Made by a program: the position numbers and the translations under genes | Assembly (NCBI GenBank): GCA_030835135.1 | Contig: JAUQWO010000031.1 | Coordinates: 1 to 47,771, forward strand | Direction: 5' to 3' | Source of the DNA: Bacteroidota bacterium | GTDB taxonomy: Bacteria > Bacteroidota > Ignavibacteria > UBA10030 > UBA6906 | Length of the DNA stretch: 47,771 nt | Shown here: positions 1 to 8,957 of the stretch, one piece after another | Layout of the letters: the number at the start of each line of letters is the position of its first letter | Position numbering within the stretch: position 1 is the stretch's first letter | The notes under the pieces: generated by a model | The model's input: only the letters and a program-made list of their open reading frames with translations | Database searches by the model: none | Told to the model about the DNA's origin: nothing

Positions 1-503
1 GCACGCGTCTCTTCCACGAGAGTGCGGATGTCCGTGCTCCGCGCACCACCGGTAGCGAAGACCACCCGGTCAGCTACGGCCATGGGCGCAATGCGGTTCA
101 ACGAGCCGTCCACGAGGAGATCGGCAATGCCCAATGAGAGCATCCTGTGGGCCACGGCGGCGAGATCCGCGGTCTTATTGGGGCCCGCAACGACGGCGAG
201 TCCGCCCTTCTCCACGTGGCAAATGACCACCTGACCGAGCGCGGTCTGAAGGCCGGTAGCATCGATGACGCGGAGGCGGGCGGTGGACGCGGCGAGGCAA
301 CGCTCGGACGTGGTGACGAGCATGCCTGGATGAACCGTGATACGGGGTTTGGGGAGAAGCGTCACGTTGTCTCGCTCTTCCCCGTCATACCCGATGCCCG
401 TCACGCCGGGAAGTCGACCACGCCGGTACGCTTCATCGATCAGCGCACACAGCGTCGTCGTCTTACCCGTATTCTTGGCCGTTCCCGCGACGCCGATGAT
501 CAT
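1..503 (-). CDS. P-loop NTPase, KamB-like (aminomutase reactivase candidate), 3' end missing
   Basis: Open from the ATG at 503 to the window edge, so only about 167 N-terminal residues are visible. The protein starts MIIGVAGTAKNTGKTTT, a Walker A loop of the GxxxxGKT type at residues 4-17, followed by a conserved-looking GYDGEERDNVT stretch near residue 40. The start lies 2 nt after the stop of the mutase gene, so the two are translationally coupled. From memory, lysine 5,6-aminomutase operons carry accessory reactivase genes (KamB, KamC), and the P-loop with the GYDGE segment fits KamB best. Inferred role: nucleotide-driven release of damaged cobalamin from the mutase. The family name is a memory-based call; the P-loop and linkage are directly seen. 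Other P-loop ligase or transport families cannot be excluded without the C-terminus. Confidence 0.68.
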   Translation of the reverse strand, partial: MIIGVAGTAKNTGKTTTLCALIDEAYRRGRLPGVTGIGYDGEERDNVTLLPKPRITVHPGMLVTTSERCLAASTARLRVIDATGLQTALGQVVICHVEKGGLAVVAGPNKTADLAAVAHRMLSLGIADLLVDGSLNRIAPMAVADRVVFATGGARSTDIRTLVEETR

Positions 504-505
504 GC

Positions 506-2308
506 CTACGCCACCGTACCCTTGCCGAACGTGCCGGGATAGGCACCATCTTCCCGGTCGCCGAGCACGCCTTCCGCGATCGCGGTCGGGAGGTCCGGGG
601 CCATGCGCACCCGGTCGAGGACATCTGCGATCTTCCTCTGCATGTCGGCCGTCATTGCATCGACGGCGGCAGTCGGCGCTACGGAAGCTGTGCCCATGAA
701 CCGCGCCGACTCATGGAGCCCTTGCAGACTGTCGATGCGGGATGCCATACAGATCGGGCCGCGTGAGTACGCTTCGTCCGTGGAGGCGATCGTCATGGCG
801 TCCACCTTCAGCGCAGTGCCAAGGGCGGCATGGAACGAGGACGCGGTCGCGGATTGCACCCGGTCTTCGGTCTGCGTCATGAAGGCGATCGGTTCACCCG
901 GCCAGATCGGACAATCCACGATCGAACGCAACGCAAGGATCTTCGCCGCGTTGTAATCGACGAACGTCTGCTCCATCAGCCGGTTGATGACGATGTGCGG
1001 GCCGTAGCAGAAGAGTGGCTTCAGGATCGCGCGTGCGCCAAGCCGCGTCCCGAGGTGGACGTTGATGAGGAGTCCCGCGAGCGTCTTCCACGCCGGCACG
1101 CCGCTGAGCTCGTCGTTCCCGGGGATGTCAAACGGCATCGTGAACTGCGCCGCGAGACGGATCGCTTCGACGCCGTCCACGGCGAGTCGTGCCGGATCTG
1201 TGCCCGCGCCGAGCGAACCGTAGACCAGATCGATCTTGGTCATGTCGGCTCCGGCATGGCCGGCGAGCAACACGGTCTCGGGCGTATTCAGCCCGCGGTG
1301 GGCGCGGACCGTCAGGAGCGTCGATGGTTCCAGCAGTTCCCGGACCAACCGGATGTTCTCACCGGAGGTCACGGTGCCATCGTTCTGGTGGGTCAGCGTC
1401 CCTTCCAGCAGGCCTTCGTAGCGGGCCTCCCATGAGGGGTTGATCAGCAGGAACCCATCCACACCCCAGCGTTCGCAGACCTTGGCATGCATGATGTCCA
1501 TGACCGGACAGCCAGAACCGAGGAACTTGAAGAACAGGGGGCGGTCCCCCGCATGGCGGAGCGACACCGGCCGGTGCTGATGGCGCCCGGCGAGCATCTC
1601 CTTCAGCCGCGACAATTCTTCGCCCGACACAACGCGCACGCCCTTCGGCATGAGTCCATTGCGGAAGGCGTCGGCGATGACGGGATCGGAGATCGCAAGG
1701 TAGCGGTCCAGGAGTGCCGCGCGGCGTGACGGGTCCCTCTCCTCGAATATGCCGGCACGCAGCTGCGCGCGGCGGGTCCCCGGTGTGCTCTTTCCTTCGG
1801 TCCACCGCAGCAGCTTGTCCACGATCTCATCCAGGGCGGCAGCGATCCGGGCATCGTGCACCCTGTATGAATACCCTGCCGTGATGTCCGGCTTCGGTTT
1901 CACCACTGCGGAAGCGCCGCTTGAGGCGGGGAGCCCTTCCAGGTACGCGACCACGTCCTCGATGCGCGCGTGCTCATCGAACCCGCGGTCGAAGCCCAGC
2001 TCCGCGGCCAGTTCCGCCGTGATCGCCTTCCCGCCGAGTGTCACACGGGAACGTGACCGCACCCCAGCCGCGTCGAGAAGGTCGACGAAGCGTCCGAGCA
2101 ATTCGGCAACCCCGTAGCCCAGGGTCCGGCTGACGAGGATCTCGTCGTACGAACCCTGCGCGGCACGCTGCACAACGTCTTCCAGCGGGAGGTCCGGGGA
2201 GAGGAGTTCGGTATCGAACCCCCGTTCCGCGAGAGCGTTCCGGATGATCTTGATCCCGACATCATGCACGGGATCGAGGGGGACGCAGAGGATGCGTTTC
2301 TTCTTCAC
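506..2308 (-). CDS. B12-dependent aminomutase-like protein: KamE-type Rossmann domain fused ahead of KamD-type barrel
   Basis: 600 residues. Residues 1-128 look like the cobalamin-binding domain of the lysine 5,6-aminomutase beta subunit (KamE): a DPVHDVG loop at 12-18 with His15 as the probable cobalt ligand, ILVSRT at 57-62, LGGK at 91-94 and ELGFDRGF at 103-110. From about 150 to 600 it resembles KamD, the barrel subunit (a TSGENIRLVREL segment, LNTPET, and a C-terminal SRGPICMASR region). The known ornithine aminomutase OraE is also a fusion but has the barrel first, so the order here is reversed. The lysine that holds PLP in KamE, 11 residues after the cobalt His, is Leu26 here; Lys20 is the nearest lysine. 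The start is GTG with GGGAGG upstream, overlapping the previous gene as GTGA. Substrate unknown; beta-lysine, D-lysine, D-ornithine or a related diamino acid are candidates. Confidence 0.8.
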   Translation of the reverse strand: MKKKRILCVPLDPVHDVGIKIIRNALAERGFDTELLSPDLPLEDVVQRAAQGSYDEILVSRTLGYGVAELLGRFVDLLDAAGVRSRSRVTLGGKAITAELAAELGFDRGFDEHARIEDVVAYLEGLPASSGASAVVKPKPDITAGYSYRVHDARIAAALDEIVDKLLRWTEGKSTPGTRRAQLRAGIFEERDPSRRAALLDRYLAISDPVIADAFRNGLMPKGVRVVSGEELSRLKEMLAGRHQHRPVSLRHAGDRPLFFKFLGSGCPVMDIMHAKVCERWGVDGFLLINPSWEARYEGLLEGTLTHQNDGTVTSGENIRLVRELLEPSTLLTVRAHRGLNTPETVLLAGHAGADMTKIDLVYGSLGAGTDPARLAVDGVEAIRLAAQFTMPFDIPGNDELSGVPAWKTLAGLLINVHLGTRLGARAILKPLFCYGPHIVINRLMEQTFVDYNAAKILALRSIVDCPIWPGEPIAFMTQTEDRVQSATASSFHAALGTALKVDAMTIASTDEAYSRGPICMASRIDSLQGLHESARFMGTASVAPTAAVDAMTADMQRKIADVLDRVRMAPDLPTAIAEGVLGDREDGAYPGTFGKGTVA

Positions 2309-2550
2309 TGCGGTCCTCCCTTCTCCGCGGCCGGCACGAGCCAGCGGTACGGATCGCCAGGCTTGTGCACATATTTGCGGAGCCGTACCCGCACGCCGTA
2401 GCCGTCGAACTCGCAGTACATCACATCCACCTGTCCGAGCCCGAGTTCCAGCCCCAGCCTGATCGCGAGATCCTTCCCCTCCTGCTCACTGCCGCACAGG
2501 AGATAGGTCTCGATATCGAGGCCGTCCATCACTGCATCGAGTGCTTGCAT
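2305..2550 (-). CDS. Small protein resembling the N-terminal domain of KamE
   Basis: 81 residues, ATG start. Residues 20-60 (EGKDLAIRLGLELGLGQVDV and the following alternating hydrophobic stretch) resemble the region of KamE that precedes its Rossmann domain and forms the subunit interface. Here this domain is encoded separately from the B12 domain, which begins in the next, overlapping gene (GTGA). The protein probably forms a complex with the mutase, replacing the covalently linked segment of the standard beta subunit. A strong 11-bp hairpin sits just upstream of its start and its own ribosome binding site is weak. The resemblance is short and read by eye, so the homology is tentative; the operon position is firm. 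Confidence 0.6.
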   Translation of the reverse strand: MQALDAVMDGLDIETYLLCGSEQEGKDLAIRLGLELGLGQVDVMYCEFDGYGVRVRLRKYVHKPGDPYRWLVPAAEKGGPQ

Positions 2551-2562
2551 GGCTGCTCATCA

Positions 2563-2588
2563 GCGGGGCGGCCCGCAGGCCGCCCCGC
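2563..2588 (-). other. Intercistronic hairpin in the aminomutase operon
   Basis: GCGGGGCGGCC at 2563-2573 pairs perfectly with GGCCGCCCCGC at 2578-2588 (11 bp, 4-nt loop). It lies between the PLP enzyme stop and the KamE-like start, 12 nt before that start codon. No U-tract follows on the minus strand, so it is not a standard terminator. It could limit translation or stabilise the upstream mRNA part. Confidence 0.6.
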
Positions 2589-2598
2589 CGGTGTCCTG

Positions 2599-4065
2599 TT
2601 ATTCGAAGATACCTGCTTCGTTGCAGACGATCTCGATCAGCATTACGAGTCCGCGGATGATCATGCGGGCCCGTTCCGGGATCACCTGGCCGTGCTCGTC
2701 GGTCGTACCGAGGCCCGGGGAAATGAAGAAGTTTGCGTCGTACGCGATTGTCGGGATGATGCCCATCTGCGACATGCCATCCTGGAACAGATGCGAACCG
2801 GAGTACATGTCCTCGATCGAGAAGATCGGGATGCCCAGCTTGCCGTCCTTCCAGCTGTCTTCGTAGTTGATCTCGACCGTGCCGGAGTTGTAGCTCTTCG
2901 CGAACTGGAAATCGCCCCGGATGCGGCTATCGATGCGGCTGAACTCGTCTACCACGATGGCATACAGATCGTCGACGGGCTTCTTCATCAGTTCCGGCTT
3001 GTCGCGGAGGACCTTCAGCGCCGCCACCTGCCCGGAGAGACCTTCCTTGCCCGGATCCTGACCGACGTACGCAGCCTTGCCGTACGACGAGGTCGTGCCA
3101 TAGCGGGCGCCATGGTACCCGAGTCCGCGGCGGACCGCGACCATGACGTCCTCACGGCCGATGATGAGCGCGCTGGTCGGTGATCCCGTGGCCTTGTCCA
3201 TGCTGAAGATCATGCAGTCCGCACCGACCTTCTTGATGCTCGTGCCGATGAACGGCATGCCCCACGCATTGTCGATGATATACGGGACGTCGTAGGAGCG
3301 CGCGATCTCGGCGATGCCCTTCTGGATGAGTGGTGTGCCCTCGGCATCCTTCGCACTGTAGCCGTAGCCCGGCGTGTCGTACCCCAGCGATGCGAAGCCT
3401 CCCAACAGGACCTCGTGCTGCTTTGCGGCGGTCCGCAGTGCGGCGATCGCACCCTTGGCATCCGTGTTCTTCATGAGCGGTACCGGGTGGTAATTGATAC
3501 CGTGCACGGGGTACGCGGCACCGGGGAGCGGGACATACACGACATCCAGGTTGTTCTGGCGTTTGCCGGAGAAGCCGAGTTCGCCGGCGGTGCTGCCGCG
3601 TTCGGCGAGGATGTCCTTGTACTTCGGCGGATACGGACGGCCGTAGCCACCCTGGTGGTGGATGTGGCGCTCGTAGGGAGCGATGTAGCGCGTGCGGTAG
3701 TTGTCGCCACGGCCGGTGATCGGCGGCGTCACGAGCGTATCGAAGCAGGTCCAGAGGCCGCCTTCACAGGTGTTCACCGGGGCTGCATCATAACCGTCGC
3801 CATACACGTCCTTCACGATCTCACGGATCTGGTCCACGTACACCGTAAGGGGGACGACCTTCCGTGATTCGACCGCCATCACCTTCTCGATGTCCTCGCG
3901 GAGCGGCGACGGGCAGCCGGAGATCGCTCCGGTGAGTCCGATGGCGCCCTTGAGCTCGGCGGGCATGTTCAGGGACTCTGCGGCCTTCTTCGCGGCGGCA
4001 TAGATCTTCGGAGTGTTCACCTGGAGACGCTTATACATCTGGAACTTATACGCTGGCTTTGCCAT
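2599..4065 (-). CDS. Fold-type-I PLP-dependent enzyme, SepSecS/SelA-like, unknown reaction
   Basis: 488 residues, ATG preceded by AAAGGA at good spacing. Residues 261-270 read PYIIDNAWGM, giving the aspartate (D265) that pairs with the PLP ring nitrogen, and SMDKATG at 288-294 gives the Schiff-base lysine K291. The pair NA(W/Y)G followed by a serine-x-aspartate-lysine motif recalls O-phosphoseryl-tRNA:selenocysteinyl-tRNA synthase and related enzymes. The N-terminus holds CPSPLREDIE near 51 and a Cys/Gly/Trp-rich TCEGGLWTC segment near 100. No tRNA-binding extension or selenium gene is nearby, so the role is more likely catabolic: cleavage or transamination of the product made by the mutase and dehydrogenase. 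It is not the OrtB type (a threonine-synthase-like fold). Substrate unknown. Confidence 0.72.
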   Translation of the reverse strand: MAKPAYKFQMYKRLQVNTPKIYAAAKKAAESLNMPAELKGAIGLTGAISGCPSPLREDIEKVMAVESRKVVPLTVYVDQIREIVKDVYGDGYDAAPVNTCEGGLWTCFDTLVTPPITGRGDNYRTRYIAPYERHIHHQGGYGRPYPPKYKDILAERGSTAGELGFSGKRQNNLDVVYVPLPGAAYPVHGINYHPVPLMKNTDAKGAIAALRTAAKQHEVLLGGFASLGYDTPGYGYSAKDAEGTPLIQKGIAEIARSYDVPYIIDNAWGMPFIGTSIKKVGADCMIFSMDKATGSPTSALIIGREDVMVAVRRGLGYHGARYGTTSSYGKAAYVGQDPGKEGLSGQVAALKVLRDKPELMKKPVDDLYAIVVDEFSRIDSRIRGDFQFAKSYNSGTVEINYEDSWKDGKLGIPIFSIEDMYSGSHLFQDGMSQMGIIPTIAYDANFFISPGLGTTDEHGQVIPERARMIIRGLVMLIEIVCNEAGIFE

Positions 4066-4079
4066 GGGGCATGTCCTTT

Positions 4080-4526
4080 CTAAGGTTGAAGTGATGAAAA
4101 ACCGGGGATGGCGACGGGGTCGCCGGGACGGAGACCCAGTTCGTCGCCCGGAACGCGTTTCTCCACGCGGAGAATGGTATTCTGGTGATTCGGCACGTGC
4201 GTATCGTCGAACCCGACGATCGTGCCGACCTCTGCATCATTGATGAGTACCCTGTCCCCCGCCAGCAGCACGCCGCCGTCGAGCAGCTCCACGAACGCGA
4301 TGTACGCGATCCGCTGCACGCTGGCCCCCGGCCCGGCATCCTGTTCATCGGTACCGATGAGTTCGATGATGCTCCCTGCCGGGAATGCACGGGAGATCGG
4401 TGCGATGAGCGAGAGACTGCGGTTCTCGAGCATGCCGCGCAGGACCACGACCACCCGCCCCCGCATCGGGGTCTTTCCCGCGAAGAAGGATCGATTGGTC
4501 AGCTTCTGGGTGTACGGATCGGCCAT
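4080..4526 (-). CDS. Conserved-looking 148-residue protein of unknown function in the aminomutase operon
   Basis: 148 residues, lying 7 nt after the dehydrogenase stop and 14 nt before the PLP enzyme start, so almost certainly co-expressed with both. It has no signal peptide or membrane segment. The sequence is rich in beta-strand patterns with a GDRVLINDAEVGTIVGFD stretch near 100 and a HVPNHQN motif near 116 that could bind metal or substrate. Its position between dehydrogenase and PLP enzyme mirrors small OrtA in ornithine pathway operons, but I see no convincing sequence match to OrtA. It may be a small subunit of the PLP enzyme. No function is claimed. Confidence 0.7.
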   Translation of the reverse strand: MADPYTQKLTNRSFFAGKTPMRGRVVVVLRGMLENRSLSLIAPISRAFPAGSIIELIGTDEQDAGPGASVQRIAYIAFVELLDGGVLLAGDRVLINDAEVGTIVGFDDTHVPNHQNTILRVEKRVPGDELGLRPGDPVAIPGFSSLQP

Positions 4527-4533
4527 GGGGTCC

Positions 4534-5457
4534 TCAGACGAAGCGCGTCACGAAACTATCCACATCGCCGTATAGAAAGTCCACCACCGGCAGTTCGATC
4601 ATCGTATAGCACCCCGGCTGTTGCCGCATGGCGGCGCGGGCGGCGGAGACCATCACCTGCGCGGTGAGGGCCGGGTTGTTCACCTTGAGCTGAAAGCGCA
4701 TCGACTGGTTGTGCGTCACGCCCGAGACGCCGTTGCGTTCCAGGAGCACGCCGTGACCGGTGTCCATGAGCGAGGCGACATCCTCGACCTCATAGACATA
4801 GGTGCGGTCCTTCACGAAGTACGGATCGGCTTTGATGCGCTGCTCGACCTCCTCGAACTTCGCGCCCGGTTGCAGCTGCACGTAGACCATGCGACGGTGG
4901 ATGCCCATGCCGGCGGGAACGGTGATCGAAATGGCGTCCTTCACGCCGGCGATGGCGCGGACCGCGACCGAATGTCCCATCGACATGCCCGGACCGTAGT
5001 TCGTGTAGGTGATGCCGCGCGGTGCCATGGCCTGAAACCATCCGCGCATGACGGAGTCGATGCCCGGGTCCCAGCCCGCGGAGAGGATCGACACGGTGTT
5101 GTGCTCTGTGGCGATCGCGCCGAGTTCTTTCCGCACGGCGGGAATATCGTGATGGATGTCGAAGCTGTCGACCGTGCGGATGCCGTAACGGAGGATCTTG
5201 CTTGCGGTTTCGCGGACGACGCGGGATGGGCAGGAGAGGATGGCGACGTCGATCGACTGGAGTTCCCGCACATCGGAGACGATACGCACGGAGCGCAGGG
5301 CCATGGGGTCGCGTTCCGAATACGGGCAGTCTTTCGAGACCACTTCCGCCACTTCCACGATCCCGACCAGTTCCATATCGGGTTCGACGAGGATGGATTC
5401 CACTGCACAGCGTCCGACATTGCCATAACCGAGGACGGCGACGCGTGTCTTGTTCAT
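4534..5457 (-). CDS. Diaminopimelate-dehydrogenase-like NAD(P)-dependent amine dehydrogenase
   Basis: 307 residues. The ATG at 5457 overlaps the regulator stop (ATGA) and has GGAG 7 nt upstream. A Rossmann GYGNVG motif lies at 10-15. SAGWDPG near 148 and GPGMSMGHS near 175 match the active-site blocks of meso-diaminopimelate dehydrogenase (Ddh), and the distal GHGVLLER and NPALTA segments also align. Compared with the Corynebacterium enzyme as I remember it, about 17 residues are missing after the TVP segment, where the substrate lid and an arginine lie. That suggests a different substrate. In this operon it probably oxidises the amine newly placed by the aminomutase, the job done by 2,4-diaminopentanoate or 3,5-diaminohexanoate dehydrogenase in the known pathways. 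A role in lysine synthesis is less likely given the neighbours. Confidence 0.8.
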   Translation of the reverse strand: MNKTRVAVLGYGNVGRCAVESILVEPDMELVGIVEVAEVVSKDCPYSERDPMALRSVRIVSDVRELQSIDVAILSCPSRVVRETASKILRYGIRTVDSFDIHHDIPAVRKELGAIATEHNTVSILSAGWDPGIDSVMRGWFQAMAPRGITYTNYGPGMSMGHSVAVRAIAGVKDAISITVPAGMGIHRRMVYVQLQPGAKFEEVEQRIKADPYFVKDRTYVYEVEDVASLMDTGHGVLLERNGVSGVTHNQSMRFQLKVNNPALTAQVMVSAARAAMRQQPGCYTMIELPVVDFLYGDVDSFVTRFV

Positions 5458-6194
5458 CGGGTGCTCCGTTGACGTTCCTGGGGTTGATGTCCGCCCGCCT
5501 GGGAGTCGATGTAGGCGCACAGGGCCTTCCCGGCCGCATCGCCATGGGCACGGACGAGGCGCTCGACGAGCGCGGCATCGCGTTTGGCGAGCGCGGCGAG
5601 GATCCGCTCGTGTTCCTTCATCGATGGTGTCAGGTGGGACAGCACGGACAGGTAGATGTAGTTGTAGCGGAGGGCCTGGGCGCGGAGTGAGCGGACATAG
5701 CCGGCAAGTTTCTCGTTGCCCGAGGCATCGCTGAGTGTCTGGTGGAACTCTGCGTTGAGCTGCAGAAGTGTGCGGACGTCCTTGGTGCGCGCGCCGGCGA
5801 TGCGGCACATGCGCTCGTGCAGATCATGCAGCGCCTCCATCGTCGCCGGCAGCAGATGTGCACACGCCAGCCGGGCAGCATAGGCCTCGAGCACGCCCTT
5901 CACCTGGTACGTCTCGGCGGCATCCGCATGAGAGAGCACGCTCACGACGGCCCCGCGGCGCGGGGTGACGCGGACGAACCCTTCGGAGTCGAGCTGGAGC
6001 AGCGCTTCGCGCAGCGGGGTGCGGCTCACGCCGAGCCGCGTGGCGAGGTCAGGTTCCACGAGCCGGTCGCCCGGGGTCAGGCCGCCGTCAATGATGAGTG
6101 TGCGGATCCGGTCGGCGATCCGGTCGCGCAGCGTCCGGACCTCCTCCCGGTCGAATGCCAGCCCTTCGGGCCGGCCCGCCTCCTCCTGCCGCAT
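5454..6194 (-). CDS. GntR-family regulator, FCD (FadR-like) subfamily
   Basis: 246 residues from the ATG at 6194, which has GGAGGAGG directly upstream; longer in-frame starts would read through the operator. A winged helix-turn-helix covers about 15-85 (LGVSRTPLREALLQLDSEGF is the recognition part). The C-terminal all-helical FCD domain shows spaced histidines in EFHQTL, KEHERIL and AHGDAAG, the pattern of metal-binding FCD domains that sense carboxylic acids. It is the first gene of the aminomutase operon and is coupled to the dehydrogenase by ATGA. A perfect inverted repeat upstream is the likely autoregulatory site. The ligand is probably a substrate or intermediate of the pathway (inference). 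Confidence 0.9.
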   Translation of the reverse strand: MRQEEAGRPEGLAFDREEVRTLRDRIADRIRTLIIDGGLTPGDRLVEPDLATRLGVSRTPLREALLQLDSEGFVRVTPRRGAVVSVLSHADAAETYQVKGVLEAYAARLACAHLLPATMEALHDLHERMCRIAGARTKDVRTLLQLNAEFHQTLSDASGNEKLAGYVRSLRAQALRYNYIYLSVLSHLTPSMKEHERILAALAKRDAALVERLVRAHGDAAGKALCAYIDSQAGGHQPQERQRSTR

Positions 6195-6208
6195 ACCTCC
6201 TCCAATCT

Positions 6209-6235
6209 GCATATTGTATACAATATACAATATGC
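6209..6235 (-). promoter_or_regulatory. GntR operator, 12-bp perfect inverted repeat
   Basis: GCATATTGTATA at 6209-6220 and TATACAATATGC at 6224-6235 are exact inverted repeats around a 3-nt centre, and include the TTGTATACAA core typical of GntR/FCD operators. The site lies 15 bp upstream of the regulator start and covers the predicted transcription start of the minus-strand operon. It is AT-rich against a GC-rich background. Probable autorepression site. Confidence 0.8.
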
Positions 6236-6236
6236 A

Positions 6237-6265
6237 AATATCGGGAACGGGCACCAGAAAGTCAA
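6237..6265 (-). promoter_or_regulatory. Predicted sigma-70-like promoter of the GntR-aminomutase operon
   Basis: On the minus strand TTGACT (6265-6260), a 17-nt spacer and GATATT (6242-6237). Expected start near 6230 falls inside the operator, consistent with repression. The -35 shares a 9-bp inverted repeat (6257-6279) with the -35 of the divergent met promoter. Confidence 0.55.

Positions 6266-6318: not shown

Positions 6319-8957
<2,639 letters not shown>

Follow-up and report, generated by a model that had tools for sequence, protein, structure and literature searches.

The window, as we call the whole 47,771-nucleotide stretch analysed (an entire contig, from a 4.9 Mb genome), carries a real, widespread and so far undescribed AdoCbl-mutase module. 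We found no description of this system in the open-access literature, which agrees with a preliminary description of the operon as undescribed. Its mutase is a KamDE relative without the known PLP site, and the module therefore probably belongs to an undescribed B12-dependent amino-acid pathway. We put at about an even chance the reading in which it is a regulated, self-contained unit through which an amino acid is utilised and which includes the oxidation of a D-amino acid. We infer that the mutase uses AdoCbl, that it is independent of PLP and that the pathway runs in the catabolic direction.

In the scheme we propose, an 81-residue subunit and a large fusion of a B12 domain with a TIM barrel would form the holo-mutase, which would draw on AdoCbl for a carbon- or nitrogen-skeleton rearrangement of a free amino acid. 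Conserved Arg, His and Glu residues at the barrel top would hold the substrate, with no counterpart of the Rossmann-domain PLP aldimine of lysine 5,6-aminomutase (LAM) and ornithine 4,5-aminomutase (OAM), and a KamB-type P-loop protein would exchange damaged cobalamin. A D-amino-acid dehydrogenase, or a flavoprotein, would oxidatively deaminate the D-centre of a meso-diaminopimelate (meso-DAP)-like substrate or intermediate, a PLP enzyme and a DUF6917 protein would carry out a further lyase-, aldolase- or epimerase-type step, and an FCD regulator would control the operon through ATTGTATACAAT. To our knowledge, few adenosylcobalamin-dependent mutases have been found. The present one is a distinct lineage with reordered domains. 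Its hosts span at least two phyla and include cultured Firmicutes (Sporomusa, Desulfotomaculum and Thermosediminibacter), and the system is therefore testable. If the scheme is true, it would provide a function for DUF6917 and for a PLP family outside the curated families, reveal the way in which a B12 enzyme can shed the site of its PLP partner, and bring a further B12-dependent step into models of how amino acids are turned over anaerobically.

Seven minus-strand genes, all co-directional, occupy positions 3-6194 (Table 1). All seven were found as the preliminary description had them, adjacent and with an FCD regulator of their own. Their junctions, which it had called mostly overlapping, overlap in only two of six cases, by 4 nt each; the remaining gaps are 2-48 nt.

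Table 1. Features of the mutase operon in the window.
Feature	Position	Strand	Remark
KamB-like P-loop reactivase, N-terminal half, 167 aa	3-503	-	3' end lost at contig end
AdoCbl mutase large chain, B12 domain + KamD-like TIM barrel, 600 aa	506-2308	-	GTG start
Small subunit, 81 aa, KamE N-terminal (dimerisation) domain counterpart	2305-2550	-	
Fold-type-I PLP enzyme, 488 aa	2599-4065	-	
DUF6917 protein, 148 aa	4080-4526	-	
Type-II meso-diaminopimelate (D-amino acid) dehydrogenase, 307 aa	4534-5457	-	
GntR-type regulator with FCD domain	5454-6194	-	Operon's first gene
Probable operator, inverted repeat, core ATTGTATACAAT at 6213-6224	6205-6239		Just upstream of regulator start

The fusion consists of an N-terminal B12 domain (approximately residues 1-128, with the motif DPVHDVG) and a TIM barrel (approximately residues 145-600). 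The B12 domain matches Pfam PF02310, the Pfam match of the barrel to lysine 5,6-aminomutase is sub-threshold, and in NCBIfam and PDB searches the first 120 residues are nearest to LAM beta and OAM. Against the NCBIfam model for lysine 5,6-aminomutase beta (NF052385) the fusion scores 42.7 bits, under the curated equivalog cut-off of 280. Profile comparison by hhalign, using KamD, KamE and OraE sequences drawn from genomes, gave E values of 6e-23 against KamE, 6e-16 against OraE and 4e-8 over 400 columns against KamD. The AlphaFold2 model of the fusion (pLDDT 87.7) has LAM alpha as its best match (VIA Z 33.5, rmsd 3.4, 386 residues), followed by glutamate mutase E (Z 26.9) and OAM (Z 26.6). By profile, PDB and structure comparison alike, the fusion thus scores best with the aminomutases among B12 families. 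The B12 domain has an invariant H15, G18 in 45 of 46 mutase sequences and, compared with the DxHxxG axial-histidine pattern of LAM and OAM, an Asp three residues before the His in all 46. In the barrel, R296, R335, H337, R338, N341, R374, N398 and E400 are invariant in 46/46.

The 81-residue protein, whose gene adjoins the mutase gene in the loci examined, shows a weak resemblance to the KamE N-domain (hhalign E 8e-5) and to OraE (0.0017). The P-loop protein scores 172 bits against the NCBIfam reactivase_KamB model NF052386, covering model positions 1-167 of 326 in a copy that ends at the contig end; full-length homologues score 178-235 bits against a cut-off of 210 (Ignavibacteria 178-196, Firmicutes 235). 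A cobalamin adenosyltransferase is encoded in the source genome. Judged by these sequence relationships, the mutase is made of KamDE parts in a new arrangement, with the KamE N-domain as a separate gene and the B12 domain ahead of the barrel. The likeness to KamDE of C. sticklandii and T. tengcongensis with KamB thus covers the TIM barrel, the B12 domain, the KamE-N-like small protein and the P-loop protein, whereas the window operon differs in having its B12 domain N-terminal on the barrel and the KamE N-domain counterpart as its own gene, in having no Kdd, Kce or KamA, and in the loss of the PLP-lysine loop and most PLP contacts. Two side observations concern this part of the operon: in some Ignavibacteria operons the small-subunit and mutase genes are separated by a gene that, by eye, resembles a CorA-type transporter (L024:10386-11306, L026:10652-11566), and one mutase gene (G255:C4:726559-728371) is spread across two reading frames, contains the in-frame stops TAG and TAA and is probably a pseudogene or a sequencing error.

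The preliminary description had called the system a B12/PLP aminomutase, of which the KamDE-type B12 mutase homology stands; the PLP part is doubtful, as the PLP-lysine loop and most PLP contacts are missing from the alignments. The PLP of LAM is bound by Lys144 from the B12 subunit together with Ser238, Tyr263, Asn299, Arg184, Arg268, Ser189 and Tyr236, and this site is highly conserved in OAM (PMC3958899). In the profile alignment, the loop bearing the PLP lysine (K144/K629) is deleted in the fusion family, which is here 8 residues shorter than KamE and 4 shorter than OraE. Only one of the eight LAM contacts, Y263 (Tyr363 in the fusion), is kept in this residue mapping, which comes from sequence profiles at approximately 20% identity. 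At the same level of identity, the barrel contacts R184, S189, Y236, S238, R268 and N299 are replaced or deleted, with Ser238 aligned to Arg338, Arg268 to Ala368 and Asn299 to Glu400. The LAM phosphate loop RTTGQS is deleted in the fusion-KamD alignment. Relocation of the PLP lysine to the small subunit was rejected, the 81-residue protein having no invariant lysine. By these PLP-site criteria, as read from aligned sequences, the fusion appears to fall outside the LAM/OAM aminomutases, although the module as a whole would follow the logic of the known amino-acid pathways that first rearrange and then oxidise.

We consider it rather unlikely that the fusion is nevertheless a true B12/PLP aminomutase that acts on a diamino acid, for example D-lysine, by shifting its terminal amine, with the Ddh-like enzyme oxidising the new amine and the PLP enzyme and DUF6917 cleaving the ketone in parallel to the ornithine pathway. 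LAM and OAM are its closest relatives, the PLP-stacking tyrosine is kept with a glycine-rich loop after it (Y363-GSLGAGT), and PLP could bind through one of the other invariant or near-invariant lysines (K358, five residues before Tyr363, or K20, K408 or K456). The gene logic is also like that of the ord-ortAB-oraSE ornithine cluster, which is present in some of the same genomes; the two share the order of rearrangement, oxidation and PLP step as well as a related B12 domain. Against this stand the deleted Lys144/629 loop and the change of six more PLP contacts; moreover, the window operon has no OraS, its Ddh pocket is of the unchanged meso-DAP type, and OrtA and OrtB are not recognisably homologous to DUF6917 and the PLP enzyme. 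Genomes that have KamD and OraE also carry the cluster, so that lysine and ornithine are already served there.

Glutamate mutase (GlmE/GlmS) offers a second comparison, as a B12 mutase barrel fold without PLP, the absence of PLP being our inference in the case of the window mutase. The two barrels have no significant sequence relation (hhalign of the entire barrel against GlmE gave E values of 0.04 or worse), in contrast to the fold similarity given above, and the window reactivase is KamB-type, not GlmL-type. A glutamate-mutase-like active site was also considered on the basis of a visual VR-H...TP likeness and was not upheld at the sequence level, where neither hhalign nor sliding-segment controls supported it. 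The invariant Arg/His/Asn/Glu set could, from its conservation pattern, bind a free amino acid through the carboxylate and the amine. We put at somewhat less than an even chance the full reading in which the fusion, together with the small subunit, represents a new, PLP-independent AdoCbl mutase branch from the LAM lineage that opens an undescribed amino-acid pathway common to Ignavibacteria and Firmicutes, and in which a new PLP enzyme family has DUF6917 as its obligate partner.

The seven genes co-occur in other genomes. In a set of 100 relatives, 16 genomes carry the full-length mutase, the PLP enzyme occurs in precisely these 16, and DUF6917 in 15 of them (Fisher 7e-19, uncorrected for kinship, with a distribution that is patchy inside genera and families). 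In 250 genomes of the class to which Sporomusa belongs, DUF6917 exceeds its cut-off in 19; the mutase is present in 18 of these 19 and in none of the other genomes. Of 18 genomes that encode the PLP enzyme, 17 also encode the mutase, even where the two are unlinked; in one MAG (G127) the PLP gene is present but a full-length mutase is missing. A scan at one genome per species, in which the best 80 of 161 PLP-enzyme relatives were kept, gave Ignavibacteria/Bacteroidota MAGs as the closest named records among those 80. The seven-gene order is the same in the intact Ignavibacteria loci (about 20), and in Firmicutes a five-gene core (DUF6917, PLP enzyme, small subunit, mutase and KamB) recurs in many loci. 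Because the gene order recurs, the arrangement is not due to chance, and in Ignavibacteria the seven genes are passed on together.

Trees of the mutase and of the PLP enzyme are congruent, and where a genome has paralogous copies both trees separate them alike, as if, from the sequences, there were two parallel versions of the pathway. Several Firmicutes have two divergent cassette copies in separate clades (L077/L078, L085/L115, L060/L088), which suggests two substrates. Several genomes carry both LAM-type and OAM-type genes (KamD, OraE) alongside the cluster, and its presence beside both known aminomutases suggests that it serves a third substrate or route. The Firmicutes clusters lack Ddh and instead have a different FCD regulator, a GidA-like flavoprotein, RidA and a permease. 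This multi-spanning permease (L102:12787-14163, L075:12767-14179 and 11 other loci) has a conserved GLDGSGFSxLPL motif; it matches no Pfam or NCBIfam family, and relaxed Pfam and PDB searches were also unhelpful.

The PLP enzyme had been described as SepSecS-like. A weak likeness holds, but the protein reaches no curated family in Pfam and NCBIfam searches. Its AlphaFold2 model (pLDDT 84.8) has fold type I, with K291 (SMDKATG) as the predicted internal-aldimine lysine and D265 predicted to pair with the pyridine nitrogen. Threonine aldolase, SHMT, PhnW and SepCysS match this model within approximately 1 Z unit of one another, and because the structural neighbours are tied across several fold-type-I groups the reaction cannot be read from the fold. 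The neighbouring 148-residue protein, previously listed as an unknown, belongs to DUF6917 (Pfam PF21891, 139.2 bits against a cut-off of 27), with the conserved motif GFDxTHxPNHxN; relaxed Pfam and PDB searches were of no further help in identifying it. Its gene regularly adjoins the PLP gene in Ignavibacteria and in Firmicutes, and the two proteins are probably subunits of one enzyme. Homology to OrtAB, the 2-amino-4-ketopentanoate thiolase of the ornithine pathway, was rejected, as neither DUF6917 against OrtA (hhalign E 0.048, probability 1%) nor the PLP enzyme against OrtB (E 0.34, probability 0.2%) is significant.

The Ddh-like amine dehydrogenase of the preliminary description is confirmed by family score and pocket as a type-II meso-DAP dehydrogenase (Ddh); Ord of the ornithine pathway is weakly related to it. 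It scores 302.5 bits against TIGR01921 (cut-off 180.6) and matches PDB 3wb9 with an E value of 2e-117, and the cluster dehydrogenases are 55.7-63% (about 58%) identical to the S. thermophilum enzyme. The equivalents of D92, W121, D122, T171, R181, H227 and N253, which we take to be the meso-DAP-binding residues of S. thermophilum Ddh, are kept, with D92 changed in 1 of 15 sequences; pocket residue F146 is Tyr in most. The suggested route from D-lysine to 2,5-diaminohexanoate is therefore disfavoured: that compound has no second carboxylate, and as Ddh keeps the meso-DAP pocket it is not an expected substrate. Compared with S. thermophilum type-II Ddh (3WB9), the window enzyme differs in lying in a mutase operon and in organisms that also have DapF. 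DapF was present in 11/11 of the Ignavibacteria checked; lysine synthesis therefore does not depend on Ddh, and we rejected Ddh as a missing lysine-biosynthesis enzyme.

A Ddh that is normal by family score and pocket despite the presence of the LL-DAP route (DapF) could point to degradation or recycling of meso-DAP from peptidoglycan, or of a close diamino-dicarboxylate, in which Ddh first oxidises the D-centre and the mutase and PLP enzyme act on the resulting 2-amino-6-oxo acid; lysA adjoins the regulator in two genomes, in line with this. We regard this as decidedly unlikely. Firmicutes clusters have this mutase and this PLP enzyme but no Ddh, type-II Ddh enzymes are generally known to take other D-amino acids too, and we know of no chemistry that connects a 2-amino-6-oxo acid to a B12 mutase. 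The Ddh position is filled in Firmicutes by the GidA-like flavoprotein and RidA, and in an Atribacteria MAG by a ThiO/DadA-like flavoprotein with a BFD-like subunit, an Asp/Glu-type racemase (PRK07475) and a TRAP transporter. The common denominator of these variant clusters is D-amino acid oxidation, as the mutase-module reading has it. Among the clusters examined, we recognised no enzyme that depends on CoA. The Atribacteria variant (L110:8303-16907 and L165:6672-10667) is possibly one operon broken between two contigs.

Aspartate-family genes are frequently near the loci (lysC, asd, lysA, hom and thrB, and also dapA-dapB): metY-metX-lysC-asd adjoin the operon in the window, and hom-thrB, lysA or dapA-dapB do so elsewhere. 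This could reflect a biosynthetic side branch of the aspartate family in place of a catabolic pathway, which we think very improbable, since the operon has its own FCD regulator and operator-like site and is patchy within genera, its Firmicutes partners are a permease and flavoprotein electron-transfer proteins, and a separate SAM riboswitch precedes the divergent met genes. The riboswitch (RF00162, 73 bits, 6324-6436, plus strand) lies before, and faces, the divergent metY operon, for which reason control of the mutase operon by methionine or SAM was rejected. The metY-metX-lysC-asd genes are probably unrelated to the operon.

The proposed catabolic module would be controlled by its own regulator, which has both a PF00392 (67 bits) and a PF07729 (86 bits) domain and is preceded by an inverted repeat with 16-nt arms that are 94% complementary. 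The palindromic core ATTGTATACAAT is found at a single place in the 4.9 Mb genome, before the regulator, and once in each of four related operon-bearing genomes, always in the same place. Being single, conserved and before the regulator, it makes the operon probably autoregulated by the FCD protein through this candidate operator, and the regulator's sole target. With at most 2 mismatches, the core is found near the regulator start in 21/21 Ignavibacteria loci examined.
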